A stretch of DNA of 64,000 nt from Bacteroides sp. (GTDB taxonomy: Bacteria; Bacteroidota; Bacteroidia; Bacteroidales; Muribaculaceae). The stretch spans positions 1-64,000 of the forward strand of contig JAAVCH010000022.1 of assembly GCA_014802425.1 (NCBI GenBank), given 5' to 3'. Of this stretch, positions 32,294-61,490 are shown piece after piece. Under the pieces are notes generated by a model. The model saw only the letters and a program-made list of their open reading frames with translations, searched no databases and was not told the DNA's origin. Position 1 is the stretch's first letter. Each line of letters starts with the position of its first letter. The position numbers and the translations under genes were made by a program.

Positions 32294-35200
32294 TCAGTTG
32301 AGGCGGATGAAGGCGGGGATCCAGGCCTTCACTGAGACGGTGCTGCTGACTGTGCCGCCGTTGATGAGGTCGAGGCCGGTGCCGCCGATGGAGATATTGG
32401 CGTCTCTCTCGGAGAAGATCACCACTACCTTGTTGCCGGAGGAGGCATCGGTCTTGGTGATCACCTCGGCGCCGTTCTGCTGGGTGCGCTCCACTGTGCC
32501 GCGCCAAAGGGCGGGATTCTCACCACGTGCCTTGAAGACCTTGGCCACGTAGTCGTGGACCTTCTGCTCGTTGGTGTTGAAGCCGGAGATGCGGCCCGAA
32601 GTGCGGGCCTTGTTGTCGGCGTTGCCGTTGCCGGACTTGTCGCCGATCTCGTCGCCGTAATATGTGCAAGTCGGACCTGAATAGGCAGCCACGGCCGCAT
32701 GGCGCGTCATGAGCTTTTCGGGCGATGAACTTACATCCACGAAATCGCCTACCCTCGACGTGTCATGATTGCTGAGGAAAATCGTGGGGTTGACGCCTGA
32801 ATCACGGTAGCCACGCGATGCCGCGTCGTTGGAAAGGAACCATCCGCATGAGCCCACACCCGAAGAGAGGTTCACGAGATTATCCTTGCCGTCGAAGTCC
32901 ATCACGCTCTTGAGGCCGTCCTGCTGGGTGGTGGTTATGTTGCCGGCCGAGGTCCAGTCCTCTCCTACCATATACGCAAGCGTGCCCCACTGCTCTCCGC
33001 GCGCCTTGCGCTCGGCAGCCACTTTCTCCGCCTCCTTGCGGAGGTCGTTCCAGTAGTTGTGGCCGCCCTGATATACCTGATAGCACTGGTCAAGACGCCA
33101 GCCGTCGACTCCGCGCTCCATCCAGTAGCGTATCACTTCCTTGAAATAATCGAGCGATGCGGGAAAAACGATGTTGCCCGCCTCAGTGCCGCGCACGTTC
33201 GGAGTGTTGTCACGGGTCGTGATCCACTTTCCTTCGGGAGAAGCCTGGTTCACACCGCCATGATGGCCGAAAACGCCGTCGAGTATGACGTATATGCCGC
33301 GGTCGTGGCATTCACGGATAAGGTCGTCGAAATCGGCTTCCGTGCCGAATTTCGGGTCTACCTTGAAATAGTTCGTGCAGAAATAGCCTGTGGCCTGGAG
33401 CTTCTCCCCTCCGTTGCCGTTGGTGGAGTCGAAGATGGGGGTAAGCCATATCGCGTTCATGCCGAGTCCCTTGATGTAGTCGAGGCTTTCAATCACTCCG
33501 CGCAGGTTGCCGTTAGTGCGGTGGCCGCTGGGGCCCCACATGTCGCTGTAGCCTGAGGTGCCGTTGTCGCTGTGCTGGAAAGAGCCCACCATTATCTGGT
33601 AGATGGAGAGCTCGCGCCAGTCGCCGGAAAGGTCGTAGGTGGGAGTGGAGTCGTCGCGGGTGAAGGTGGCCGTGAATTGAGAAGTGCCGATGGAATTGGC
33701 GGCGGTCACCGACATCTCGCCGCTTTCACCGTCGGAGAGGTAGGAGGATACGCTGACGGTGTTGGAGTCGGTCGGCGACAGCGTCAGCGTACGGCCGTTG
33801 AAGGTGCCGCTGACCGTCACGGGCTCGTTGCCGAATGTGATGGTGATGGAGGAGTCACCCTTGACATTGCCGCCGGCAGGGGTCACAGTGATCGACGGAC
33901 GCTGCGGGCCGACATATACCGAATAGGAGCCGTCGGCATGATAGGTGGCCTTGCCGACAAAGGCGAGGTTTCCTCCGCCGGCCCTGTTGCTGTCGGAGTG
34001 GTCGTCCCAGCTTATGATGATGAATTCGGGGGTCTCCTTGCCTTCAGGAAGGCTCCAGTAATACTTGCCGTCCTTGACCGTCATCATGTCGCCGGGCCAT
34101 GTACCTGACGAAGTGCAGTTGACGTTCTTGGTATCGTTCCATGCCCATACGGCCACGTTCGTCTTCGACATGTCGTCGAAGTAGACATATACGCTGTCAT
34201 CGACATCCACCGGAGGCTCCACCGTCTGGGTCTTGGTATAAGTGAAGCTCTGCAGATTGGTCTCGCCGTCATTGTCGGTGAAGACGGAGAGTGTGGTGGT
34301 GGCATTGAAAGTGAGCGGTGCGGTATATACGGGAGAGGAGGCGTCGGCGGTCCCTGTGGTGGAGTAATGTACGGGCACTCCGGCCGGGTTCACGCTGAGG
34401 CTTACAGTGACGGCATCGGTGAATTCACCCGCCGCAGGGTTGGGAGTGACCACGGCACGTGTCCCTACGGGAGGAATCGGAGGTACGTACCCTCCGCCGG
34501 ATGTGCCGTATTCCTCGATGAGCATCACGGGGCCGGAGGCCGTCATGGTCACTTTGCCTCCGCTGACTGTGGCCGTGTTGTCGGTGTTGTAGCCGTCCAT
34601 TACGCGGGTGCCGTCAGCGAAGGCGGAGCCTACATTGAGAGTATAGCTCTGCCCCGACTGGGTGTCAAGGCGAATGGCTACGGCGTTGGAGTAGGCGCCG
34701 TCGGAGAATTTACGGATATAGGTGCCGTCGGAGATGGTCTGCGTGCCGGCGCCGACAGCGGGATTGCGGCGGCGGAACTGACCGACCTTCTGCCAGTGGA
34801 GGTTGACGTCATTGTCCACGGCGCTCCAGTTGAAGTCGCCTCGGGTCACCATGCCGGGGTCGCCGAAACCGTTGACTGTCGGGCGCGAGGTCTCGTCGCC
34901 GTAGTAGATCTGGGCGCCGCCGGGACAGAGCAGGAGCATCGTGCCCACCTTTTTCTGATCGCCCGGACGGTGGAGACCTGTGTCATGGCTCGACACGTAG
35001 TTGAGCACCTGATGGCCGTTGGAGCCGTTGCAGAAGTTGGCGTAGTATTCCCAGTCGCCGGTCGTGGGCGTGCGGCCGGTGCCCCCTTCGGTGCCGTTGA
35101 AGGCGAAATTGATCATGGAGTCATAGCCGCCCTGAGTGAAGTAGCCGGTATCGCCGTGGTCCCAGCCCCAGGCCTCTCCTGTCATCCAGAAGTCCTGGGT

Positions 35201-36583
35201 CCAGTCCTTGGCATACTCGTCGGCGCGGTCGCTGGCGCGCCATGTCTGCAATGCTGTGCGGCATGCTTCCTTAAGCTGCTTCCAGCGTGAGAACTCCACG
35301 TGCTTGGCCGTGTCGCAGCGGAATCCGTCGATGCCGAAGTACTCCACCCAGGCCGCCAGCCAGTGGATCACGTAGTCGGCCGGAGCGCCCTTGCCTCCCA
35401 CACGCCAGTCGTCGATGTTGGGCAGACGGTAGTCGTCATACTCGCCACCCTTCTCGGCACTCCATTTCTTAGAGAGGAACGCGGGAATCTGCACTGAGGC
35501 CGTGCTCTCGGTCACCACGTCGGGCAGCCCCGAGAGGGACATAGTCTTGTCGTCGCCGCCGGGCACCACGAAGCCTGCCGACTGTCCCCACGGACGGTCG
35601 CCGAAGGCACGCACCCACGGGCCCCACCAGTTGCCCCATTTTCCCTGAGTGTCGGCGTTGAAGCTCACGCTTCCGCTTCCCCACATGGTGAAGGGGGCCG
35701 ACGAGGGCACATAGCCGGCAGTCGGAGTGCCGTTGAAGTTGCCGAAGTCATAGTCGACGCAGTCGTCGAGAGTGGAATAGCCGGTGTGGTTGAGCACGAT
35801 GTCCATCACCACGCGTATTCCGCGGCGGTGAGCCTCGGTGACAAAGCGGCGCATGTCCTCGAGTGTGCCCATGTTGCGGTCCATGAAGGTCCAGTCGAGG
35901 GTATAGTAGCCGTGGAAAGCATAATGCGGGAACTTGTCGTCCTTGCCGCCTGTCCAGCCGTGCATCTGCTCGTAGGGGGCAGTGATCCATATGGCGTTGA
36001 CGCCGAGGCTGTCGAGGTAGTCGAGCTTCTCGGTGAGGCCCTTGATGTCGCCGCCGTGGAATGTGGCCACGTCGGTGCCGCCGGCCGTCTTGTGGCGGTG
36101 GTAGCTTTCATCGTTGGAGGTGTCGCCGTTATAGAAGCGGTCGGTCAGCACGAAGTAGACGTTGGCGTTCTTCCACGTGAAGTATTCGGCGCGCACGGCC
36201 TCGGGAGTGGTCACCTTTACGGTGTAGACGGTGGTGCGGTCGCCGTCGGTGACAGTGTAGGTGATGAGGTTCTCGCCGGCGGCGAAGGCCCCCATGGAGT
36301 GATTGGTGTACTGGAGGCCGTTGACGGTGATGTCGACCGTAGCCGAGGCCGAGGCGGGAGCGGCGGAGAATGTGGCCGTCTGCATGGCGTCCTCCCCGAG
36401 CTCTACCTCATAGGAGGTGGTGGCGGGATTGAATGAGGTCAGCACGTTTTCTCCGCCCACCTTGATTTCCAGACGGCTGAGCGAGGCGTCGGCGGCGGCC
36501 AGGCCGGAAAGCGAGCCTCCGGCAAGCATCATCGCTGTCACGACGGCTCCCATGTGTCCGGTATATGATCTGTTGGATTTCAT
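32294..36583 (-). CDS. Secreted amylase with two GH13 catalytic domains
   Basis: 1429 aa, exported by an N-terminal signal peptide. A Cadherin-like/beta domain (35-125) precedes GH13 domain 1 (about 135-690) with nucleophile Asp424 (FRCD), acid Glu470 (MTGEAW) and Asp534 (SSHD). Then a chitobiase C-terminal-like beta domain (710-785), a CBM26-like starch-binding module (795-890, VYVYFDDMSKTNVAVWAW), another beta domain, and GH13 domain 2 (about 990-1429) with Asp1165 (GWRLD), Glu1208 (MVGED) and Asp1274 (SNHD). Both catalytic triads are intact. It should cleave alpha-1,4-glucans such as starch or glycogen. It is 19 bp after the GLUG/T9SS gene; no SusC/SusD pair is nearby. The tail (ends ...WIPAFIRLN) has no evident T9SS signal. 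Confidence 0.93.
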   Translation of the reverse strand: MKSNRSYTGHMGAVVTAMMLAGGSLSGLAAADASLSRLEIKVGGENVLTSFNPATTSYEVELGEDAMQTATFSAAPASASATVDITVNGLQYTNHSMGAFAAGENLITYTVTDGDRTTVYTVKVTTPEAVRAEYFTWKNANVYFVLTDRFYNGDTSNDESYHRHKTAGGTDVATFHGGDIKGLTEKLDYLDSLGVNAIWITAPYEQMHGWTGGKDDKFPHYAFHGYYTLDWTFMDRNMGTLEDMRRFVTEAHRRGIRVVMDIVLNHTGYSTLDDCVDYDFGNFNGTPTAGYVPSSAPFTMWGSGSVSFNADTQGKWGNWWGPWVRAFGDRPWGQSAGFVVPGGDDKTMSLSGLPDVVTESTASVQIPAFLSKKWSAEKGGEYDDYRLPNIDDWRVGGKGAPADYVIHWLAAWVEYFGIDGFRCDTAKHVEFSRWKQLKEACRTALQTWRASDRADEYAKDWTQDFWMTGEAWGWDHGDTGYFTQGGYDSMINFAFNGTEGGTGRTPTTGDWEYYANFCNGSNGHQVLNYVSSHDTGLHRPGDQKKVGTMLLLCPGGAQIYYGDETSRPTVNGFGDPGMVTRGDFNWSAVDNDVNLHWQKVGQFRRRNPAVGAGTQTISDGTYIRKFSDGAYSNAVAIRLDTQSGQSYTLNVGSAFADGTRVMDGYNTDNTATVSGGKVTMTASGPVMLIEEYGTSGGGYVPPIPPVGTRAVVTPNPAAGEFTDAVTVSLSVNPAGVPVHYSTTGTADASSPVYTAPLTFNATTTLSVFTDNDGETNLQSFTYTKTQTVEPPVDVDDSVYVYFDDMSKTNVAVWAWNDTKNVNCTSSGTWPGDMMTVKDGKYYWSLPEGKETPEFIIISWDDHSDSNRAGGGNLAFVGKATYHADGSYSVYVGPQRPSITVTPAGGNVKGDSSITITFGNEPVTVSGTFNGRTLTLSPTDSNTVSVSSYLSDGESGEMSVTAANSIGTSQFTATFTRDDSTPTYDLSGDWRELSIYQIMVGSFQHSDNGTSGYSDMWGPSGHRTNGNLRGVIESLDYIKGLGMNAIWLTPIFDSTNGNGGEKLQATGYFCTNYFKVDPKFGTEADFDDLIRECHDRGIYVILDGVFGHHGGVNQASPEGKWITTRDNTPNVRGTEAGNIVFPASLDYFKEVIRYWMERGVDGWRLDQCYQVYQGGHNYWNDLRKEAEKVAAERKARGEQWGTLAYMVGEDWTSAGNITTTQQDGLKSVMDFDGKDNLVNLSSGVGSCGWFLSNDAASRGYRDSGVNPTIFLSNHDTSRVGDFVDVSSSPEKLMTRHAAVAAYSGPTCTYYGDEIGDKSGNGNADNKARTSGRISGFNTNEQKVHDYVAKVFKARGENPALWRGTVERTQQNGAEVITKTDASSGNKVVVIFSERDANISIGGTGLDLINGGTVSSTVSVKAWIPAFIRLN

Positions 36584-51937: not shown

Positions 51938-53329
51938 CTACCGAGAGCCGGAGGGAGCGACGGTGGCACCGCCTGAAACGGATGGAGCGGCGTTGGCAGA
52001 CGGGGCCCCGGAAGGAGCGGCCGCGGCCTGCTGACCGCTTGTGGCAGACGGAGTGGGCAGAGTCAGTCCGATTCGAGTGGCGAAATCCTGCGACGCGGCA
52101 TTGAGCAGCCGCCCCTCCTCAGTCATGAGTACGGTGACGACGGGTTCGGCAAGGGTCGTGATCCATGTGTCGCCGGTAAACTGCGGGAAAAGCATCTCCG
52201 CCAGCGACGAGGAAGCTCCCGGGGCCGGACGCGAACGCTTCTTCATCAGATTCCATTCAGGCTGCCACCGTGATTTATTCCAACGGCGTTTCCCCTTCTC
52301 TACGGTGGTGTAATAGTCTTCATTGATGGAGCAGGTCTCGGTGATGTCCATCTCCACACGGTACTGCCCTGTGCCCCACGACGGAGAGTAAGTGGCCATA
52401 TCGGTGGAGCCCACGTAGCTGCGCGGCACGAGGAAGCAGTCGCCTGTCACCACCACGCGTTTCGGACCACGCGCATCCTCACTGCGCGAATAGCGGAACA
52501 CTCCGTCGGAATCAAGATGATTCGGATCAATGCACGCCGTTATCCTGAAGCGTCCGAGCTCCACGTTGTCGGCTACCTGTATGGCCTCATTGACCCACGA
52601 CGACTTCACGACCGCCTCCACATTGAACCGCAGATCCTTTCTTTTCTCGAAGCTGAACCCGATGCGGGTGGAGGGATCCATCGAGAGCGAGTCATTGGGT
52701 AGATTGCACAGCAGAGGGTTGAAACGGAGTTCATCCACCACTACCTCGAATTTCGAATGATGCAGCATGCGGTCGAGTCCATGGTCATCGTCGCGAAGTG
52801 TGCACGACAGGTAAAACACCTCCTCGTCGTGAGATTTGCCGGCGGAATCAAGAACCGTGATGTACTGACGGCAGCCGAAACCGCTGAACTTCATCCCCGT
52901 AGGGTCAAACGCACCTAACGGGGACGGGGCGGCATAGAAATCGAGTACGTCAGTCACCATCGGCAGATGCTTCACGAAGCGGCACTCCCCCATCGTGGCG
53001 GCCTGCCAGTCGGGACGCTTGTCGCGCAAGGCTTCCTTGGCCAACCCTATGCCTGCACCAAGAAGATTCTGCGAGGCGGAAAGGACGGTGGACGTACCCA
53101 GCGAAAGGTAACCGGACGCAAGGTCGGTCAGTATGGAGCGGTTTTCACCGTGAGCCCGGCGGGTCTTCAACGCACGGAGTCCACGATTGAATGTAAGGGT
53201 GTCGTTGTGCTGGTTGACGATGAGGTCGTACTTTCGCTGACCTCCTGCCAGTTTCCGGTCCGGCGCCGGCTGCGCGAAGACCCCGAAAGCCATAGTGGAG
53301 AGGAGAAGCGTGGTAAGGTAGGTGTTCAT
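51938..53329 (-). CDS. Exported protein of unknown function, CHAT-cluster member
   Basis: 463 aa. A clear signal peptide (MNTYLTTLLLSTMAFGVFAQ) and no transmembrane helix after it; no lipobox. I do not recognise the family. The middle has alternating beta-like segments (RFNVEAVVKSSW, ELGRFRITACID, RVVVTGDCFLVP, QYRVEMDITETC) with at least six cysteines, and the C-terminal about 40 residues are low-complexity Ala/Pro/Ser (SGQQAAAAPSGAPSANAAPS). It is the last gene after two CHAT genes (38 bp from the 811-aa one), so it may be a substrate, adaptor or effector of the proteases; that is inference from position. Confidence 0.7.
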   Translation of the reverse strand: MNTYLTTLLLSTMAFGVFAQPAPDRKLAGGQRKYDLIVNQHNDTLTFNRGLRALKTRRAHGENRSILTDLASGYLSLGTSTVLSASQNLLGAGIGLAKEALRDKRPDWQAATMGECRFVKHLPMVTDVLDFYAAPSPLGAFDPTGMKFSGFGCRQYITVLDSAGKSHDEEVFYLSCTLRDDDHGLDRMLHHSKFEVVVDELRFNPLLCNLPNDSLSMDPSTRIGFSFEKRKDLRFNVEAVVKSSWVNEAIQVADNVELGRFRITACIDPNHLDSDGVFRYSRSEDARGPKRVVVTGDCFLVPRSYVGSTDMATYSPSWGTGQYRVEMDITETCSINEDYYTTVEKGKRRWNKSRWQPEWNLMKKRSRPAPGASSSLAEMLFPQFTGDTWITTLAEPVVTVLMTEEGRLLNAASQDFATRIGLTLPTPSATSGQQAAAAPSGAPSANAAPSVSGGATVAPSGSR

Positions 53330-53367
53330 ATATCGCTCGATATTGGATTATGTCTGGTTTCAGTATT

Positions 53368-55803
53368 TCAGGGATCTATCAGTATGAACGGCGCCCAATA
53401 GGCCGGAGCGGCATACGGGTGGCTCACTGATGAGGGAGAAGATGATGAGGATGCGACAGGGCGGCTTGACATCGAGCCGGCACTGAATCTCCTCTGAGGA
53501 TGCTCCACGGCGAAGTCGCGCACCGCGGACTGGGCCGCCGAGAAGGCTTCGGAAACCGGCACCCCTGCGGCAAGACGCGAATGGAAACCTGTCATGAAGA
53601 GGCGCGCCGCATGGTCGTCGACCTCCCAGAGGGTAGCCACTATCGTACCGGCCCCCGCCATCTTGAGCGCACGCACGAGGCCGGAGGCATTTTCATCGGT
53701 TATGCGTCCTTTCGCCGTCTGACATGCGGAAAGCACCACGAGCCGCGCTCCGCTCAGGTCAAGGTCGCATATCTCACGGGCGGAAAGTATGCCGTCGTCA
53801 CGCAGGGGACGCTCCGGACCGCCGTCGGATCCGCTGCCAGGGTTGCCGAGCACGTTCGCCCCGGAGAGGGCCAGCCCGGAGCGGAGAAGGGAGATGTCGA
53901 CGGCCAGAGTGTCGGAGGGAAGGTAACGTCCTGCCCCTACTCCGCAGTCGAGGCTATAGCCATGCGTGGCCAAAAGAAGATGCGAGTAAGCCGATGCCTC
54001 GGCCTTGAATTCCTCCTCGCTCAACACATCACGCGGATTGTCTACGCCAAGTATGCGGGCCACTTCGGCAGCCTCTCCGGCCGTGCCGGGCAGATAAGTG
54101 AACACCGCCCGGGGAGAGGTCAGGCCGAGGCCACGCGTCAGTTCCATATAGGCCAGATTGTTACCCTCGCCGGGTGCCACCCCCTCAGCCGCAGGCTCGG
54201 AGTCGTAATCAAGTCCTCCCGCTATCAGCGAATTTCCAGCCACGAAATCCTCCGGGCGCTCCAGCAGCGACGACAGGCGGACCATCTTCAGGTCTCCGCC
54301 TCCTGCGAAAGGCATATTCTCAACGCCCCATAGATGAAACACACCCTCCGGCACGAACCGGACCGTGCGCACACTCTTCGGCAACGACTCCAGCACCGGA
54401 CGCCATATCATCCCGCCGAGCAAAGAATCGGAGTATAGCACATTCTTAAGATACGGGTCTTCATCCTCTATGGCTTCGGATATGGAGGCATCGGCCACCA
54501 TGCCGGGTTCATCCAGGAACGCCGCATCAAAGAGCGGCACGAATTTCGGACACCCTTTGGAGGTGAATGTCACGGCACCGTACATTTCCCTTCCCTCTTC
54601 ATCCGGATAAAGCACGAAGGCCACTCCCGCCTCGCCGTCGGCCAGCAGCCGCGCCGCATCGCTCCCCCGGGCCATGATGCGTGAGGCTGCGGCATCCGGC
54701 TCGTCACCAAGGTCGTAGAGCGACGGAAGTGAAATCTCGCGGCGGGTCAGCGCCACATCGAGGAGCAGCTCAGGGTCGGCGTCACCGATCATGAATGCCC
54801 TCGATAGAAGCGGCCGCTCCATAGTCCAGTAATCGAGCCGCATCTGCGCGGGCATTCCGGCCAGCGTGCGGGCGATACGCAGGCGTTCGGCCTCGAAGGA
54901 CTGACGCATCAGCCGGGCGGATTCCTTTCTTTGACCCGCACGGAGAAGTATTTCGGCTTTTTTCCAGAGGGCTATCAGATAGTCGGCGCCTTCATCGGCC
55001 GAGCACGGATTCCGCCGCGTGGTGACGGAGGAGGCAGCCACCCCTCCGGTTTCCTTAAGGGCCCGGTCGATTTCCATCAGCGCCTCCGCGTGACGTCCGG
55101 CACCGGAGAGGGCTATGGCGAGGTTGGCGCGCACGTGTCCGTGGCCGTGGCCGGTGTCGGAGAGAAGCGCCATGGCACGCCCGTAGTCGGCGATGGCTTC
55201 CTCATGCCGTCCGAGGACCGCGAGGATATACGCGCGGTTCTGGAGCAGCACATCAAGCGAGGGGGATTCTCCGGCCTCCGCTATCGCCTCATCAAGAATG
55301 CCGAGGGCTTCAGAAGTATTACCGAGGCGGTATTCAAGCGAAGCGAGGGCTCCCTCACGGCGGATTTCGCCCTCGGAGCCGGGAGCGAAGACAGCGTCTG
55401 CCAGCGACCCGGCGGCACGCCCGTAGCGGCCGAGGGCTATCTCGAGCTGGGCGCGGTTGAGGAGCAGATTGGCAAGATTCCGTCCATCGGGTGTAAGGGG
55501 GTCGGCAGCGTCGGGAAATACCGCGGTATCGGCCATAATGGCCGCGGCACGGTCGTAAGCTTCCTCGGCCGCGGGATAGTCGCCCGTGGCCCGGCGGATG
55601 TCGGCGAGCATCTGCAGCGTCCGCAGGCGTACGAGCGGATCAGCCGAGCTACGCATGATGGAATCGGCGAGCGAAGCGGCCCGCCGCCAGTCGCGCGCCG
55701 CCATCGCCTCGCGGGTATCGCGCAATACCTTCGATGGACGGAACACGTCGGCCTGCGCGAGCAGAGTGCTTAAAAGAATGATAATCCAGAGTAGACGATG
55801 CAT
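53368..55803 (-). CDS. Exported TPR-CHAT protein (putative caspase-like protease), 811 aa
   Basis: An N-terminal signal peptide (MHRLLWIIILLSTLLAQA) precedes about nine TPR-like helical repeats (25-315; e.g. GDYPAAEEAYDRAAAI, GRHEEAIADYGRAMALL) and a CHAT domain (about 390-811). The CHAT dyad is present: His614 in LLLATHGYS and Cys694 in VLSACQTAKG, with the C-terminal YWAPFILID motif. CHAT is a caspase-HetF-associated cysteine protease fold. A Ser-rich insert (772-795) sits just before the C-terminal motif. The gene lies 14 bp after the 1475-aa CHAT gene, same operon. Export of a CHAT protease predicts targets in the envelope or outside the cell; no target is known. Confidence 0.85.
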   Translation of the reverse strand: MHRLLWIIILLSTLLAQADVFRPSKVLRDTREAMAARDWRRAASLADSIMRSSADPLVRLRTLQMLADIRRATGDYPAAEEAYDRAAAIMADTAVFPDAADPLTPDGRNLANLLLNRAQLEIALGRYGRAAGSLADAVFAPGSEGEIRREGALASLEYRLGNTSEALGILDEAIAEAGESPSLDVLLQNRAYILAVLGRHEEAIADYGRAMALLSDTGHGHGHVRANLAIALSGAGRHAEALMEIDRALKETGGVAASSVTTRRNPCSADEGADYLIALWKKAEILLRAGQRKESARLMRQSFEAERLRIARTLAGMPAQMRLDYWTMERPLLSRAFMIGDADPELLLDVALTRREISLPSLYDLGDEPDAAASRIMARGSDAARLLADGEAGVAFVLYPDEEGREMYGAVTFTSKGCPKFVPLFDAAFLDEPGMVADASISEAIEDEDPYLKNVLYSDSLLGGMIWRPVLESLPKSVRTVRFVPEGVFHLWGVENMPFAGGGDLKMVRLSSLLERPEDFVAGNSLIAGGLDYDSEPAAEGVAPGEGNNLAYMELTRGLGLTSPRAVFTYLPGTAGEAAEVARILGVDNPRDVLSEEEFKAEASAYSHLLLATHGYSLDCGVGAGRYLPSDTLAVDISLLRSGLALSGANVLGNPGSGSDGGPERPLRDDGILSAREICDLDLSGARLVVLSACQTAKGRITDENASGLVRALKMAGAGTIVATLWEVDDHAARLFMTGFHSRLAAGVPVSEAFSAAQSAVRDFAVEHPQRRFSAGSMSSRPVASSSSSPSSVSHPYAAPAYWAPFILIDP

Positions 55804-55817
55804 GGTTCAGGAGTCAC

Positions 55818-58800
55818 TTAATCCAACAGAATGAAGGGAGCCCAGTAGTATGGGTCGGGATATGAGGATCGCACACGGCCCACCGCGCGGCGCCACGAAT
55901 CGTAGCGTGTGGAGCCTGAGCGCAGGGCACGGTAGAATTCCTGCATGAAGAGGGAGGTGGAGCGGTCGTTGACACTCCACAGGCTTACGAGAAGCGACTG
56001 CACCCCCGCCTGCTTGAAGCCGCGCTGCAGTCCGAAGATGCCTTCGAACGAATAGTCGCCGAGCGCGGTCTCACAGGCAGAGAGGGCCACGAGCCCGGTG
56101 CCTCCGAGGTCGAGGGCGGCCACTTCGGAAGCCGTCAGTATCCCGTCGTTGTCGTCCGGGGCGTCGCTGAGGCCGCGCCATGTCTCCTCGGCTCCGGCCA
56201 GCGCCACTCCGGAACGCTGCATCGTGCCTGAGCCCTTCGCCTTAAGGAAAGGATAGCGGTCGATGTCGGAGTCGGGAGAAATGTAATAGCCGTGGGTGGC
56301 GAGGTGCAGCACGTCGGGCCTGCCTGCCGCCAGCCGGCGCAGCTCCGACTCAGTGGCCGAGAACCGGGTGATGCTATCCACCCGCTGCGGGCCGAATTCT
56401 CCGGCGATGTCGCGTATCTCAAGGGCCGTGAACGGGAGATGGCGGAAATGGCTCCTCCGGATGGCGCGGCTGTCGGCGGAGGGGTCGGAGAAATCGAAGT
56501 CGCTCTCTGCGGAGCGGAGTCCGGCGGCGTCGGGGGGGAGCGGACGCTGGTCGGGAGAATAGAGGATGTCGCCCATCATGGCTATGGAGGCCGGTGGGGT
56601 TTCCGGACGGTCGAACACGAGCTGACCGGTGGTGGTGAGCTGCACGAGCTGATGGCGGTCGAAAAGGGTCGAGCCGTCGGGAAGGGAGAATGCGTTAAAT
56701 GCAAGCGTGCTCAGTATTCCCGGCAGGGAATAGTAGATTCTGCGGCAGGCGCCGACGCTCCGCTCCAGCGGAGCCCAGAGCAGGGAGTAAAGGGCCGTGT
56801 CGCCGGCAGCGTAGAGCGACCGGGCGCGTGACGCGCTGTTGCGGCTTCCGTCGCCGCGCAGATGCTCCATCAGTGCATCGGCACGGCAAAGGTCCACCAC
56901 CTCGGGGCGCTCCGCTCCGGGACGAAGCACGAGCGCCAGGATGTCGGTATTCGAGAACACGAATTCCACGGCGGCCTCGTCACTTCCGAGCCTGTCGCGG
57001 ATCTGCTCCCATTTCACATCGGCGATATCCTTATCGGCATACTTCTCGACGGCGGCGAGCACCCGCTGCTCCATTCGGTTGGTGCGGTGCTTGAGGTCGG
57101 CCAGGCGCAGGGTGCGCGCCGTATTCTCCTCCTGGCTCATATCGGGAGTCCACTGCATGTCGCGCGCCAGGGCGCCCCGCATTGTCTCTATGGAGTCCAC
57201 CATAAGGCGCAGCTCCGGGTCGCCGGAGCGCTCGATGGCTTCCATCGTGGCGCGGTGGGAACGCAACTGCATCCCGGTGCGGTATATCACGGCGTCATAG
57301 CACTCACCGCCGATTCGGTCGGGGAGGTACTGCAGAAGACCCACGAGAAGATCCGAAGGGTCGCCGTATCTCGTCATGTGGTTCTCCTGCTGCTGCTTGG
57401 TCATGAGGCGGAAGTTGCCGTCAAGCACTTCCCTGGCCCTCGCATAGCTTGCCCTCGCGTAAGGAAGGGCTTTGGCGGGATTCCCTTCCTCGGTGTACTG
57501 TCCTACCCGGAATCCATCGATAAAATCCATCACCGTCCTATTGTCACCCTTGAATGTCCGGGCGGCCTCCTCCAGACGGTCGGCCAGGGCATACGCCTCG
57601 TCGAACCGCTCCGTCATACACAGCAGAGTGATGTAATCGGAGCAGCTGACGGCATTCTCCTCATTTATACTGTCGCCCATCAGCTGCCTCATGACATGCA
57701 TCGTCTTGCCGAGATTCCCCTCAAAGTTCTTATAATACGTCGCCAGCGCCACGAGAGCCATGCGGTAATCGGAATTCTCCCTATAATCCGGCATGTAATC
57801 CCTGACCTCCGCAGTCCAGGCCTCAAGCATTCCGCATGCCTGGGTCATCATGCCTGTAAGCTGATCCATCATGGAGCGGGCCTCCACCGGCATCGCCCCG
57901 GCGTCAAATGGCTCGTAATGGAGCGCCATCATGTGCAGGTATTCCGCCATCGCCCTCACCACGTAGGAATCACGCACGAGCACATCACCGCCCGACGACT
58001 TATATAGCTGCCCGGTGAAATCGGTGATGGTCTGCAGTTTGGACAGAAGAGTTATCCAGTCGTCGGCATTGTCGTTCTTGAGAGCGTAATACTCGAGCCA
58101 GAGTCCGTCGATAAGGGTGGGGTCGGTAATTACGCCGGTGGCCGATGCGAGCAGGTCGGTGTCTTCCGCCAGTATTCGGCGTGACTCAGTAAAATCGCCC
58201 ATCATCTCATAAGCGGTGGCCATGTCGCGGCGAAGCATGATGAAGTCGGGCGAATAGGCATCCTCTCCCTGGGTATCCTTATATAGCTTCTCCGCCGTCA
58301 GGTACCACCGTAAAGCCTCCCTGGCTCTGCCCGCGTTCACGAGGTTGGTGCCGAAATCCCTGATGGTCGTAAAAAGAAAACCCGACAAAGGATTCTCCGC
58401 AAGCAATCCCTCCCCTTCCTCAAGCCATGGCTGAAGGGTTTCCGCCGGGAATCCGGCGAGGAAGGAATAGAACACTGCATTGTTGATGCAGCTCAGACGG
58501 GCGTCAGGATGCGACGCCGGCACAGCCTCAAGAGCCTCGGCATAACAGTCGGCCGCATCGGAATACCGTTTCAGGATATTGCCGTAGTAGCTCCCGAGGC
58601 CGGAGAGAAGATATGATTTCAGCAGGGAGCTTCCCGGAAGTGAGCTCTTTTCACTATTCCGTATCAACATGGTGTAGAAGCATTCCGGAAATGACCTGTC
58701 AGGGTTGTCGTACTCGTTCTCCGCGCTTAGGAGCGCCACGGCCCAATAGTTGAAGTCGTTGACGCATCCGTCCGGTCCCGACACGGCGATCCGGTCCGAG

Positions 58801-60245
58801 AGGACGTGATTCAGCACTTCTTTTCCCCGTTCATGGTTGAAGGCATAGTAGAGATAGAACTGCGCGACCACATCCCCCAACTGCAGAGACATCGGAGAAG
58901 ACGAATGGGTCGAGATATAATGCCTGTAGACGGGCTCCATCTTCTCAAGCGCCGTCTCCGGCGCAAGCATGTGGAGGTAGCGGTACACCTGCGCCATCAT
59001 GAGCATCACCGTATCGCTCTTCTCATCGAGACCGGATTCCACCATGACGCGCCGCATACGCTCGACCCAGGTGTCGTCGTCAGGATCTGAGAAAAGCTTG
59101 CAGAGGGCGATTTGGAAAAGGTTCTGATGATAGAGGGGGTTGGACATCCCGAGGGCGGCCTCAAGTATGTCGGAGGCTCGTGGCAGGAATATGTCCTCGC
59201 TCGTGGCCTGGCCAGCCGCCAGACATGTGAGCACCCACAGGACGCGGGCTTCGGCCACATCCTGCGACGAGCGGGGATAGTACATGTAAATATAATCGAA
59301 ATCCCGCTTAAGGGAGTCGAAAAGACCGGCCGACAGGTAACGGGTGTTCGATTTCAACTGTAGTCCGGAACGTATCATGGCCCTGAGCCGGGGATGACCC
59401 GGATTAAGCAGGCCTTCCGCTATTTCAGCGGCTTTTTCATGATACCATAGGGAATTACAGGGGAATTTCATTCCGGTCCCCATGAGCACGAAACCGGTGC
59501 CGCCGTTGAAGCCGGCCTCCGACTGGAGCATGGCCCCGGCCAGGTCGCTGTGGATTAAGGTCTTCATGTCGCCGATCCAGTGGTAGAGTTCAGCGCGCTG
59601 GAATGAGAGGTCGGGTGAATCGGGCGGATATATGTCGAGGGCTTCCTTTTCCAGGCGGAACATCAGAGGATAGTCGTTGACGTCACTGATGTTGGCCCTT
59701 ACATTGCGGACACAGCAGCGTATGGTCTTCATCGTCACTACCTGGGCACGGAGCCTCGGATCGGCTTTTCTGTCGACTTTCTTTTCCCAACCGGCTATGA
59801 GGTCGGCCCATTCGGAGTCGGTGTCGCGCAGGTTGGACTCCCCGGTGAGCCACGCCGTGCGCGCGCGTGCGGCGAGCAGGGAGCCGGGGTGATGCCCCTC
59901 GGCATACCGGGCTATCGCATCCATGGCGGCATTCATATGGCGGCACAGGGTGTCGACTTCCTCACGCCCCGAAAAAGCGACGTAATCCACGAGTTCGGGT
60001 ATTAATTCAGACGCCTCGCGCATGAGATTCATAGCCTCGGGTTCCTGAAGATTACTATACACTATGTCGACGGCCTCATTGAGCAGTTCCTCCTCGCTGA
60101 AGCGGGTGGGGTCGGCGTAACGTTCGGCCACCCATGCCCGGTGGGTGGATATGAGGTCCAACTGCGCGCGTGCCGTCCTTACCGACACGCCGCAGGCGAA
60201 GGCGGCGAGCAGGATAATGAGTGCGTATCTTGTCTTCGTGATCAT
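55818..60245 (-). CDS. Exported giant TPR-CHAT protein (putative caspase-like protease), 1475 aa
   Basis: Signal peptide (MITKTRYALIILLAAFACGVSVRTARA) then about 1000 residues of helical repeat, TPR-like in places (SDAADCYAEALEAVPASHPDA, AREALRWYLTAEKLYKD), a linker with coiled segments (940-1090) and a CHAT domain (about 1100-1475). His1318 (HLATHGYY) and Cys1391 (ALSACETALG) form the catalytic dyad, and the end YWAPFILLD matches the shorter CHAT protein. Its own promoter is at 60278-60308. It follows a decayed CHAT gene by 63 bp. Larger than the CHAT proteins I know from other clusters; the long repeat arm likely recognises partners. Confidence 0.85.
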   Translation of the reverse strand: MITKTRYALIILLAAFACGVSVRTARAQLDLISTHRAWVAERYADPTRFSEEELLNEAVDIVYSNLQEPEAMNLMREASELIPELVDYVAFSGREEVDTLCRHMNAAMDAIARYAEGHHPGSLLAARARTAWLTGESNLRDTDSEWADLIAGWEKKVDRKADPRLRAQVVTMKTIRCCVRNVRANISDVNDYPLMFRLEKEALDIYPPDSPDLSFQRAELYHWIGDMKTLIHSDLAGAMLQSEAGFNGGTGFVLMGTGMKFPCNSLWYHEKAAEIAEGLLNPGHPRLRAMIRSGLQLKSNTRYLSAGLFDSLKRDFDYIYMYYPRSSQDVAEARVLWVLTCLAAGQATSEDIFLPRASDILEAALGMSNPLYHQNLFQIALCKLFSDPDDDTWVERMRRVMVESGLDEKSDTVMLMMAQVYRYLHMLAPETALEKMEPVYRHYISTHSSSPMSLQLGDVVAQFYLYYAFNHERGKEVLNHVLSDRIAVSGPDGCVNDFNYWAVALLSAENEYDNPDRSFPECFYTMLIRNSEKSSLPGSSLLKSYLLSGLGSYYGNILKRYSDAADCYAEALEAVPASHPDARLSCINNAVFYSFLAGFPAETLQPWLEEGEGLLAENPLSGFLFTTIRDFGTNLVNAGRAREALRWYLTAEKLYKDTQGEDAYSPDFIMLRRDMATAYEMMGDFTESRRILAEDTDLLASATGVITDPTLIDGLWLEYYALKNDNADDWITLLSKLQTITDFTGQLYKSSGGDVLVRDSYVVRAMAEYLHMMALHYEPFDAGAMPVEARSMMDQLTGMMTQACGMLEAWTAEVRDYMPDYRENSDYRMALVALATYYKNFEGNLGKTMHVMRQLMGDSINEENAVSCSDYITLLCMTERFDEAYALADRLEEAARTFKGDNRTVMDFIDGFRVGQYTEEGNPAKALPYARASYARAREVLDGNFRLMTKQQQENHMTRYGDPSDLLVGLLQYLPDRIGGECYDAVIYRTGMQLRSHRATMEAIERSGDPELRLMVDSIETMRGALARDMQWTPDMSQEENTARTLRLADLKHRTNRMEQRVLAAVEKYADKDIADVKWEQIRDRLGSDEAAVEFVFSNTDILALVLRPGAERPEVVDLCRADALMEHLRGDGSRNSASRARSLYAAGDTALYSLLWAPLERSVGACRRIYYSLPGILSTLAFNAFSLPDGSTLFDRHQLVQLTTTGQLVFDRPETPPASIAMMGDILYSPDQRPLPPDAAGLRSAESDFDFSDPSADSRAIRRSHFRHLPFTALEIRDIAGEFGPQRVDSITRFSATESELRRLAAGRPDVLHLATHGYYISPDSDIDRYPFLKAKGSGTMQRSGVALAGAEETWRGLSDAPDDNDGILTASEVAALDLGGTGLVALSACETALGDYSFEGIFGLQRGFKQAGVQSLLVSLWSVNDRSTSLFMQEFYRALRSGSTRYDSWRRAVGRVRSSYPDPYYWAPFILLD

Positions 60246-60277
60246 GATGCAGGTCTAAAAACAGGTGTTTCAGCCCA

Positions 60278-60308
60278 CAAATATAGTGATTTATAATGGA
60301 ATATCCAA
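60278..60308 (-). promoter_or_regulatory. Promoter of the CHAT operon
   Basis: On the minus strand TTG (60306-60308) and TATATTTG (60278-60285) are spaced by 20 bp, a full TAnnTTTG match, 33 bp before the ATG of the 1475-aa gene. The -33 overlaps the end of the CHAT relic. Confidence 0.75.
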
Positions 60309-60652
60309 CTAAGGCATCAGGAGTATGAAGGGAATCCAGTAGTAAGGGTCGGACATCCTGGCGCGGAAGACGGAGTTATGCGCACCGAGTGAATTAAGGT
60401 CGGCGGTCAGTTCGGCGCCCCTGCAAAGCCCCACAACCTGCGGTTTCTTCACTCCTGACCGCAATACGAGGACAAGCACCTCCTTATCGGAGTTGACGGA
60501 CTTCACGGCCGCTTCATTACCGTCGAGCGCGTCCGCCACCTGACGCCGCATATGGTCATTCTACTCCTTGATGGTCATAAGACGGAAGTTGGCATCGAGA
60601 TTCTCCCTCTGTCCGGCATAATGGGTGCGGATGGACGGCAGCCCCGGGCGAT
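60309..60652 (-). pseudogene. Decayed third CHAT gene
   Basis: In one frame the minus strand reads LPSIRTHYAGQRENLDANFRLM..., colinear with residues about 925-956 of the 1475-aa CHAT protein, then a TAG stop (60561-60563) where that protein has Gln/Glu. The frame resumes with NEAAVKSV...LVLVLRSG...VVGLCR, matching residues about 1089-1137 (EAAVEFV...LALVLRPG...VVDLCR), and then jumps to SDPYYWIPFILLMP, matching its C-terminal end (about 1464-1475). Two internal deletions of roughly 130 and 325 codons, one nonsense codon and loss of the first about 925 codons are visible. The catalytic His and Cys regions are gone. The relic begins directly after the 203-aa gene stop (60658). Confidence 0.8.
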
Positions 60653-60657
60653 GCGTT

Positions 60658-61269
60658 TCATTCGAACCCTATTACGAATGTGACCGGGTCAAATGAGGTG
60701 TTTTCCACCCGCACGCTGAAATCCTCTTCACAGGGCGGAAAGGTCCAGGAGGCGGATGCTGTATAGCCGTCGTCGGAGACTTCGGCAGCCATCTCACCCA
60801 CCGAAGTGACCACTGTGTATTCAAGTGCTCCGGGAGCCGTGGCGACGGCCATAAGGCACATGGCGTCAGAGCCGGTGAAGGTAAACGTTCCCGTGCCCCC
60901 AGGAGCCAGCGAACGGGTGACGGTGACGACCGTTCCCGGGGTGGCCCTCAATCCCTCAAGCGGATTGAGGGGAACGAGCTCAGAATGCCTACGCCTGTAT
61001 TCGCGGCAAAAGTCGGGGGTAAAAAGCAGTAAAGGGTCGCCTACGGCCCCCACTGAGGATTCTTCGAAGCGCACGTCAGGCAGTTCCTCCACATCGGCCG
61101 TGCCGAGCAGCGCGGCCGCATCGGCGAGCGCATCGTCATCCTGCTCGAAGACGCCCCTTACAAGTTCTCTGGCGCCCTCTCCGAAAGCGGTGAGGTAATC
61201 GGTGGTCCGTGCGGCGAGTCCGAAAGGCACCGCCGTCATTAAGATAACTGAAATATGCAGTATATTCAT
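60658..61269 (-). CDS. Exported small protein of unknown function, first gene of the CHAT cluster
   Basis: 203 aa. A signal peptide (MNILHISVILMTAVPFGLAA) precedes an acidic helical segment (25-65, FEQDDDALADAAALLGT) and a C-terminal beta-rich region (about 105-203: GTVVTVTRSLAPGGTGTFTFTG, ALEYTVVTS, FSVRVENTSFDPVTFVIGFE) like a small jelly-roll or PPC-type domain. I do not recognise the family. It directly precedes the CHAT relic, so it may be the partner of a lost CHAT protease, as the 463-aa protein may be of the surviving ones. Its -7 box lies at 61483-61490. Confidence 0.65.
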   Translation of the reverse strand: MNILHISVILMTAVPFGLAARTTDYLTAFGEGARELVRGVFEQDDDALADAAALLGTADVEELPDVRFEESSVGAVGDPLLLFTPDFCREYRRRHSELVPLNPLEGLRATPGTVVTVTRSLAPGGTGTFTFTGSDAMCLMAVATAPGALEYTVVTSVGEMAAEVSDDGYTASASWTFPPCEEDFSVRVENTSFDPVTFVIGFE

Positions 61270-61482: not shown

Positions 61483-61490
61483 CAAAGATA
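61483..61490 (-). promoter_or_regulatory. -7 element of the CHAT cluster
   Basis: TATCTTTG on the minus strand matches TAnnTTTG exactly and shares TATCTTTGCACTTT with the efflux-operon promoter at 19236. The first gene begins about 214 bp downstream. Confidence 0.55.

Follow-up and report, generated by a model that had tools for sequence, protein, structure and literature searches.

In the literature consulted, the TPR-CHAT protease with a described mechanism is Csx29, which acts with a CRISPR effector (PMC9729208, PMC10028731). According to the consulted sections of these papers, it cleaves the product of a nearby gene once, and genes for CHAT substrates commonly lie close to that of the protease (PMC9729208). 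For prokaryotic metacaspases, the authors raise surface or fratricidal roles in the part of their article considered here (PMC3501461).

Here we describe a locus within the window, that is, the whole 64,000-nucleotide stretch of DNA analysed, in which two exported-type TPR-CHAT protease homologues, C811 and C1475, accompany two smaller proteins, P203 and P463. We tentatively read it, at a little under an even chance, as holding a periplasmic TPR-CHAT module in which P203 would be the regulator and P463 a dedicated partner, probably the substrate.

RESULTS

Organization of the locus

All four genes lie on the minus strand in the transcription order P203 (a small exported-type partner of 203 amino acids [aa]; 60658-61269), C1475 (a long exported-type TPR-CHAT protease homologue of 1475 aa; 55818-60245), C811 (an exported-type TPR-CHAT protease homologue of 811 aa; 53368-55803), and P463 (463 aa; 51938-53329). 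This confirms the positions and shared orientation given for these open reading frames in an earlier sequence-only reading. C1475 and C811 are separated by 14 bp, C811 and P463 by 38 bp, and P203 and C1475 by 412 bp. The last gap contains the predicted remnant of a third TPR-CHAT gene of the C1475 type, also on the minus strand (60312-60644, with an 80-aa open reading frame), which had been overlooked. This copy is decayed, judging from three collinear tblastn blocks with 53, 47, and 69% identity to C1475 and a stop inside; the blocks correspond to C1475 residues 926-959, 1081-1142, and 1459-1474 (best E value, 2.7e-14).

The TAnnTTTG motif is the −7 element of Bacteroidota. Matches to it are indeed present where promoters had been proposed, both on the minus strand, at 60278-60285 (TATATTTG, a possible −7 box for C1475-C811-P463) and at 61483-61490 (TATCTTTG, a possible −7 box for P203), but the number of such boxes in the window is not above chance (9 observed versus 10.8 expected). 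Sigma-70-like sites number 5 versus 3.6 expected, and neither count is evidence of promoters. The flanking genes scanned with Pfam/NCBIfam encode a CotH protein, an exonuclease, a TetR regulator, and an AspT-type transporter. A further open reading frame of 1429 aa lies outside the cluster (32294-36583, minus strand).

CHAT domains and catalytic dyads

Residues 465-809 of C811 (53377-54411) match the Pfam CHAT family PF12770 with 140.4 bits (E = 1.1e-40), and residues 1151-1473 of C1475 (55827-56795) match it with 166.8 bits (E = 9.7e-49), both above the 24-bit cut-off of the family. Pfam TPR matches are found in both proteins, giving the TPR-plus-CHAT architecture, and H614/C694 of C811 and H1318/C1391 of C1475 sit at the conserved dyad columns. 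The proposal of two TPR-CHAT proteins with intact His/Cys pairs therefore stands. H614 and C694 are invariant across an alignment of 29 members, all of which (29/29) contain the CHAT domain. His and Cys occupy the dyad columns in 114 of the 121 proteins of at least 400 aa in the CHAT cluster, which was built by single linkage and includes C811 and C1475 (three members below 400 aa were left out). The other seven comprise six proteins gapped at the His column and one with Q/S.

Elsewhere, a CHAT-like protein that reads Q/S in the dyad columns and may be an inactive paralogue is encoded beside a K3-CHAT-P463 module (L075:11611-14133). The host genome holds a further CHAT gene of 965 aa (L027:8001-10898, contig C4 of G000), and the open reading frames of the 19-kb stretch around it include no P463 or P203 match.

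Export signals

The N-termini of P463, C811, C1475, and P203 are all hydrophobic and resemble export signals, as had been proposed. They were scored with a crude home-made signal-peptide rule that looks for a hydrophobic core, K/R before the core, and a plausible cut site, with starts searched within 60 codons and proteins cut by a contig edge dropped. C811 and C1475 pass this rule, and so do most relatives, but P463 and P203 of the window fail it, their hydrophobic N-termini having no K/R ahead. Passing proteins amount to 115/119 for the CHAT cluster, 78/81 for P463, and 33/36 for two clusters of P203-like proteins (20/21 and 13/15), where one of the three misses is a mis-sorted kinase-lobe protein. 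The small P203-like cluster that contains P203 of the window gives 1/3, and the co-operonic clusters K4, K5, and K2a, described below, give 1/22, 0/18, and 2/13. Residue Q20 of P463 was invariant in a first nine-member alignment, which would fit cleavage between Ala and Gln, but the invariant columns of a 63-member alignment do not include it. We infer the periplasm, by default, as the site of the module; the extracellular location that had also been suggested is not supported.

Export-like N-termini are frequent in these neighbourhoods, where the same crude rule passes 205 of the 493 other genes that encode 150 aa or more. This frequency would suit ordinary envelope housekeeping, with the TPR-CHAT proteins serving quality control or being non-catalytic and their neighbours being there by chance. 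We consider such a role very unlikely, given the retention of the dyad described above and, as shown below, the repeated adjacency, clade specificity, co-variation, and patchy occurrence of these genes.

Co-conservation of P463 and P203-like proteins with CHAT

A family survey of 198 genomes, own genome included, found P463 in 9 and CHAT in 37. All nine P463-positive genomes are CHAT-positive (hypergeometric probability of 1.2e-7, relatedness ignored). Scanning public genomes with a P463 profile confirmed 161 stretches, of which the best 80 were kept, all titled Bacteroidota. Together with the window and four others, these give 85 P463 loci, which retain near-duplicates and are not independent, and in which genes were called by a simple open reading frame rule. 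A CHAT-cluster gene is present in 80 of the 85, and in 71 of the 85 a CHAT gene lies directly beside P463 on the same strand within 300 bp. The 14 loci with no directly adjacent CHAT include two with a P203-type gene between, three with a lipoprotein-like gene between, two with the CHAT on the opposite strand, and five with no CHAT-cluster gene in the sequence analysed at that locus; two were left unresolved.

In a midpoint-rooted tree of 116 CHAT proteins, read without regard to branch support, all 44 CHATs located directly upstream of P463 (556 to 877 aa, C811 included) fall in one clade, together with six others. C1475 belongs to the other main clade, where its neighbours are largely of 1438 to 1555 aa, some being shorter or cut. 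Immediately upstream of these 44 CHATs stands a P203-like gene in 28 loci and a kinase-lobe/TM/P203-like fusion in another 7 (35/44 in total); of the remaining nine, five, one of them the window, have another CHAT in this place, three have an unclustered gene, and one locus ends at a contig edge. Moreover, distances between P463 proteins correlate with those between the adjacent CHATs (r = 0.79, 46 loci), also where the CHAT is downstream (r = 0.86, 34 loci), and in each case 0 of 200 shuffles, which ignore shared ancestry, reached as high a value. Across the same 25 loci, the correlation is 0.85 with the adjacent CHAT versus 0.57 with a second CHAT.

Since the two genes are adjacent in 71 of the 85 loci, the 44 CHATs upstream of P463 belong to one clade, and the distances co-vary, the partnership extends beyond mere position. 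The survey thus bears out the expectation that P463 and P203-like proteins are co-conserved with CHAT genes. The idea of an envelope TPR-CHAT system with dedicated partners gains from this co-conservation, from the intact dyads, and from the export-like N-termini, but it needs redrawing, as the conserved unit does not contain C1475. By sequence comparison, the conserved unit is P203-C811-P463, and C1475, of another CHAT clade, need not belong to the same machine.

Properties of P463 and P203

Neither P463 nor P203 has a match in Pfam/NCBIfam (E up to 0.1; PPC families included for P203) or in PADLOC/PHROGs (E up to 0.01), and at E below 0.05 the profiles of P463 and of P203-like proteins find no PDB chain. 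Both partners had been described as being of unknown family; this holds across the four libraries, but the predicted fold of P203 is recognisable. The P203 model (pLDDT 86.4, pTM 0.82) consists of an N-terminal helical hairpin and a C-terminal beta-sandwich which, by structure comparison, resembles solved PPC/collagen-binding domains. Direct searches with P203 gave matches in 4 of 198 genomes, own included, the other three at weak E values. Two of these weak matches occupy the position expected from synteny, upstream of a CHAT gene and P463; the third is probably spurious. Identity between P203 of the window and 36 aligned P203-like proteins is 9 to 24%.

The AF2 model of P463 (mean pLDDT 80.0, pTM 0.75) has a confident, mainly beta core that finds no PDB match in a structure search, and no gasdermin is among the structural matches listed. 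Residues 65-97 (53039-53137, minus strand) form a stretch of 33 residues with at most one D/E/K/R/H/P, preceding the invariant W108 (W in 85/85). Model confidence is mostly low here, with pLDDT below 50 at residues 62-65 and 67-94 of the full-length protein (43-46 and 48-75 in the numbering of the model). This kind of uncharged stretch before W108 is commoner in P463 proteins than in soluble controls, and a membrane-active role for it is speculation on our part.

Distant P463 homologues and C14 caspases

P463, a companion of CHAT proteins, has a more distant connection with C14 caspases. Its distant homologues, of about 300 to 340 aa, align to it with an hhalign probability of 100 (E = 1.2e-40), and several appear, by eye, lipoprotein-like at the N-terminus. 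At each of the first five distant loci (5/5) a C14 caspase gene is adjacent, in one case one gene away, and these caspases have export-like N-termini, again by eye. In a class survey, the distant family occurred in 12 of 345 genomes, two of which were already in hand. Of ten new distant loci, four have a C14 gene next door and one has a CHAT gene on the opposite strand with two genes between. The other five contain no C14 or CHAT; three of them come from one genus and one lies at a contig end. Six of the ten therefore have neither a C14 nor an adjacent CHAT gene, and C14 is found by distant P463 in 9 of 15 loci overall (L138, L139, L140, L141, L143, L156, L157, L162, and L164). The distant homologues are possible companions of exported caspases. 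Some of the C14 caspases near them carry WD40-like or TPR repeats.

An association of one superfamily with two protease families, CHAT and C14, is what a generic regulator would give, and the co-variation of P463 with CHAT suits an inhibitor as well as a substrate. P463 might then be an inhibitor, chaperone, or activator, and the substrate would be some other protein, whether from the envelope, a phage, a competitor, or the animal host. P463 is larger than most protease inhibitors, which counts against this explanation. In addition, the protein encoded next to the studied CHAT protease proved to be its substrate, according to the sections consulted (PMC9729208, PMC10028731). We hold a regulatory or chaperone role of P463 to be fairly unlikely, and a substrate remains our preferred reading.

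The wider operon in relatives

In 20 of the 44 loci, the genes follow the order K4, K5, K2a, P203-like, CHAT, and P463, either complete or in a cut or fused form. In K5, an N-terminal FHA-like region is followed by a single TM segment, whose start falls between residues 101 and 148, and by a trypsin-like domain. The FHA match is weak (E = 5.7e-4 in L021 and 0.07 in L025, none in L065 and L066); the TARH His and SG[GA]P Ser are kept in 9/9 members of an alignment made from every second member above 380 aa. K2a matches the C-terminal part of the protein-kinase profile only. At seven loci a single fusion protein joins K2a to the P203-like domain through a TM segment, so the P203-like part would lie on the opposite side of the membrane. 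K4 is a relative of the RCK region of a TM-bearing protein whose Slo-like RCK and TrkA_N matches are weak. K4-related RCK-type proteins are encoded at the same loci (L082:515-2896, L076:13306-15423, L095:5881-8055, and L074:1-1629) and carry TM segments, except that of L074, which begins at the locus edge.

Other membrane proteins occur in some relatives' loci. A TIR-TM-FGE-sulfatase-like protein is encoded directly before a P203-like gene, with CHATs near, at L066:11401-12708, L067:18564-19790, and L078:10462-11733, and the two together would be a second kind of cross-membrane arrangement. Proteins with weak similarity to CHASE2 are found beside or near the CHAT-P463 pair in L061, L062, L063, L081, L087, and L092.

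The FHA-like/TM/trypsin and kinase-lobe genes are absent from the window, which would keep the periplasmic half only, and a search of its genome, run without a positive control, found no K5 relative. Since these relay genes are missing, the module in the window would have to do its sensing in the periplasm or rely on unlinked genes.

The wider operon could be taken as a transmembrane caspase-type cascade, in which a cytoplasmic signal would pass through a periplasmic protease and an exported TPR-CHAT protein to P463 as executioner. The input would be an FHA-like reader, a kinase-like lobe, and RCK/TrkA and TIR neighbours, and single-span proteins would relay it to a trypsin-like protease in the periplasm and to a PPC-like receptor. 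These would switch on CHAT, whose cut would make an envelope executioner of P463, a protein with a latent uncharged segment. Members of the P463 superfamily would generally serve exported clan-CD proteases, both CHAT and C14, as partners, and the window would hold a minimal, periplasm-only version. As a whole, we judge this cascade distinctly unlikely.

A patchy distribution (9/198, 6/295, and 2/395 genomes, own genome and distant members included) and the presence, in some relatives, of TIR and RCK/TrkA-type proteins close to the module also suit envelope defence against injected or periplasmic attackers, such as T6SS effectors or phage entry, in which CHAT would degrade the attacker, or CHATs that are themselves antibacterial effectors or immunity proteins. 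According to the consulted part of one report, a T6SS locus of Bacteroides fragilis encodes CHAT proteins in a variable region (PMC11854122). Yet PADLOC gives a single weak match for C811 (BovA, E = 0.0057) and none for C1475 (E up to 0.01) or, as above, for P463 and P203, and no T6SS gene was recognised at the loci by untargeted annotation. A defence or effector function seems to us rather unlikely in this specific form. Because of the patchy distribution, an accessory, conflict-type role nevertheless fits better than housekeeping.

DISCUSSION

Returning to the periplasmic module, C811 would be exported and, with its TPR repeats and CHAT protease domain, would stay inactive until P203 or the ligand of P203 engages it; we infer the regulator role of P203. 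Active C811 would then act on P463, most likely by cleaving it at a specific site, in the way that Csx29 cleaves Csx30. That P463 is the substrate of C811 is a guess, to which we give somewhat less than an even chance. Cleavage might activate or release P463 at the membrane or wall; this effect is likewise guessed. C1475 would be a second CHAT beside the P203-C811-P463 module. In relatives, the trigger may come from inside the cell through the inner-membrane FHA-like/TM/trypsin and kinase-lobe/TM/P203-like proteins.

As far as sequence can tell, the module points to a little-studied proteolytic signalling system of the cell envelope. An exported TPR-CHAT protein with dedicated, co-evolving partners would place caspase-type signalling in the bacterial envelope, in a module that occurs patchily yet repeatedly in gut and rumen Bacteroidales. 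P463 would be a testable partner, and the relatives would tie cytoplasmic sensing modules to periplasmic proteolysis. Such a system would speak to the long-standing question of whether the caspase homologues of bacteria serve cell death, defence, or attack on neighbours. Among the matches listed from open PubMed Central, no title or abstract opening describes exported TPR-CHAT proteins with these partners.

Bacterial gasdermins also have adjacent caspase-clan or trypsin-like proteases and a partner that acts at membranes. They are cytoplasmic, unlike the proteins proposed here, and none was among the structural matches listed for P463.

A near counterpart in architecture is Csx29/Csx30 with the sigma factor of Craspase (type III-E CRISPR), which, in the sections consulted, shares TPR and CHAT, the His/Cys dyad, and a partner gene nearby (PMC9729208, PMC10028731). 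The present locus differs in the export-like N-termini of C811 and C1475 (by the crude rule), in the lack of a CRISPR gene among the flanking genes scanned with Pfam/NCBIfam rather than by a dedicated search, and in P203-like and P463 profiles that match no PDB chain at the threshold given above. The caspase-clan/trypsin conflict systems of multicellular bacteria resemble the relatives' loci in their TIR, trypsin, FHA, or kinase domains; as described in the parts consulted, they are mainly NTPase-centred (MoxR-vWA, STAND, GTPase), and those parts do not mention the P463 and P203 families (PMC7159879, PMC8195603). Such NTPase genes were not recognised here by general rather than dedicated searches. 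Prokaryotic metacaspases are C14 and not CHAT proteins, and a P463-like companion is not mentioned in the part of the article considered, but they share with this locus the presence of caspase homologues with an N-terminal helix that may be a signal peptide (PMC3501461).
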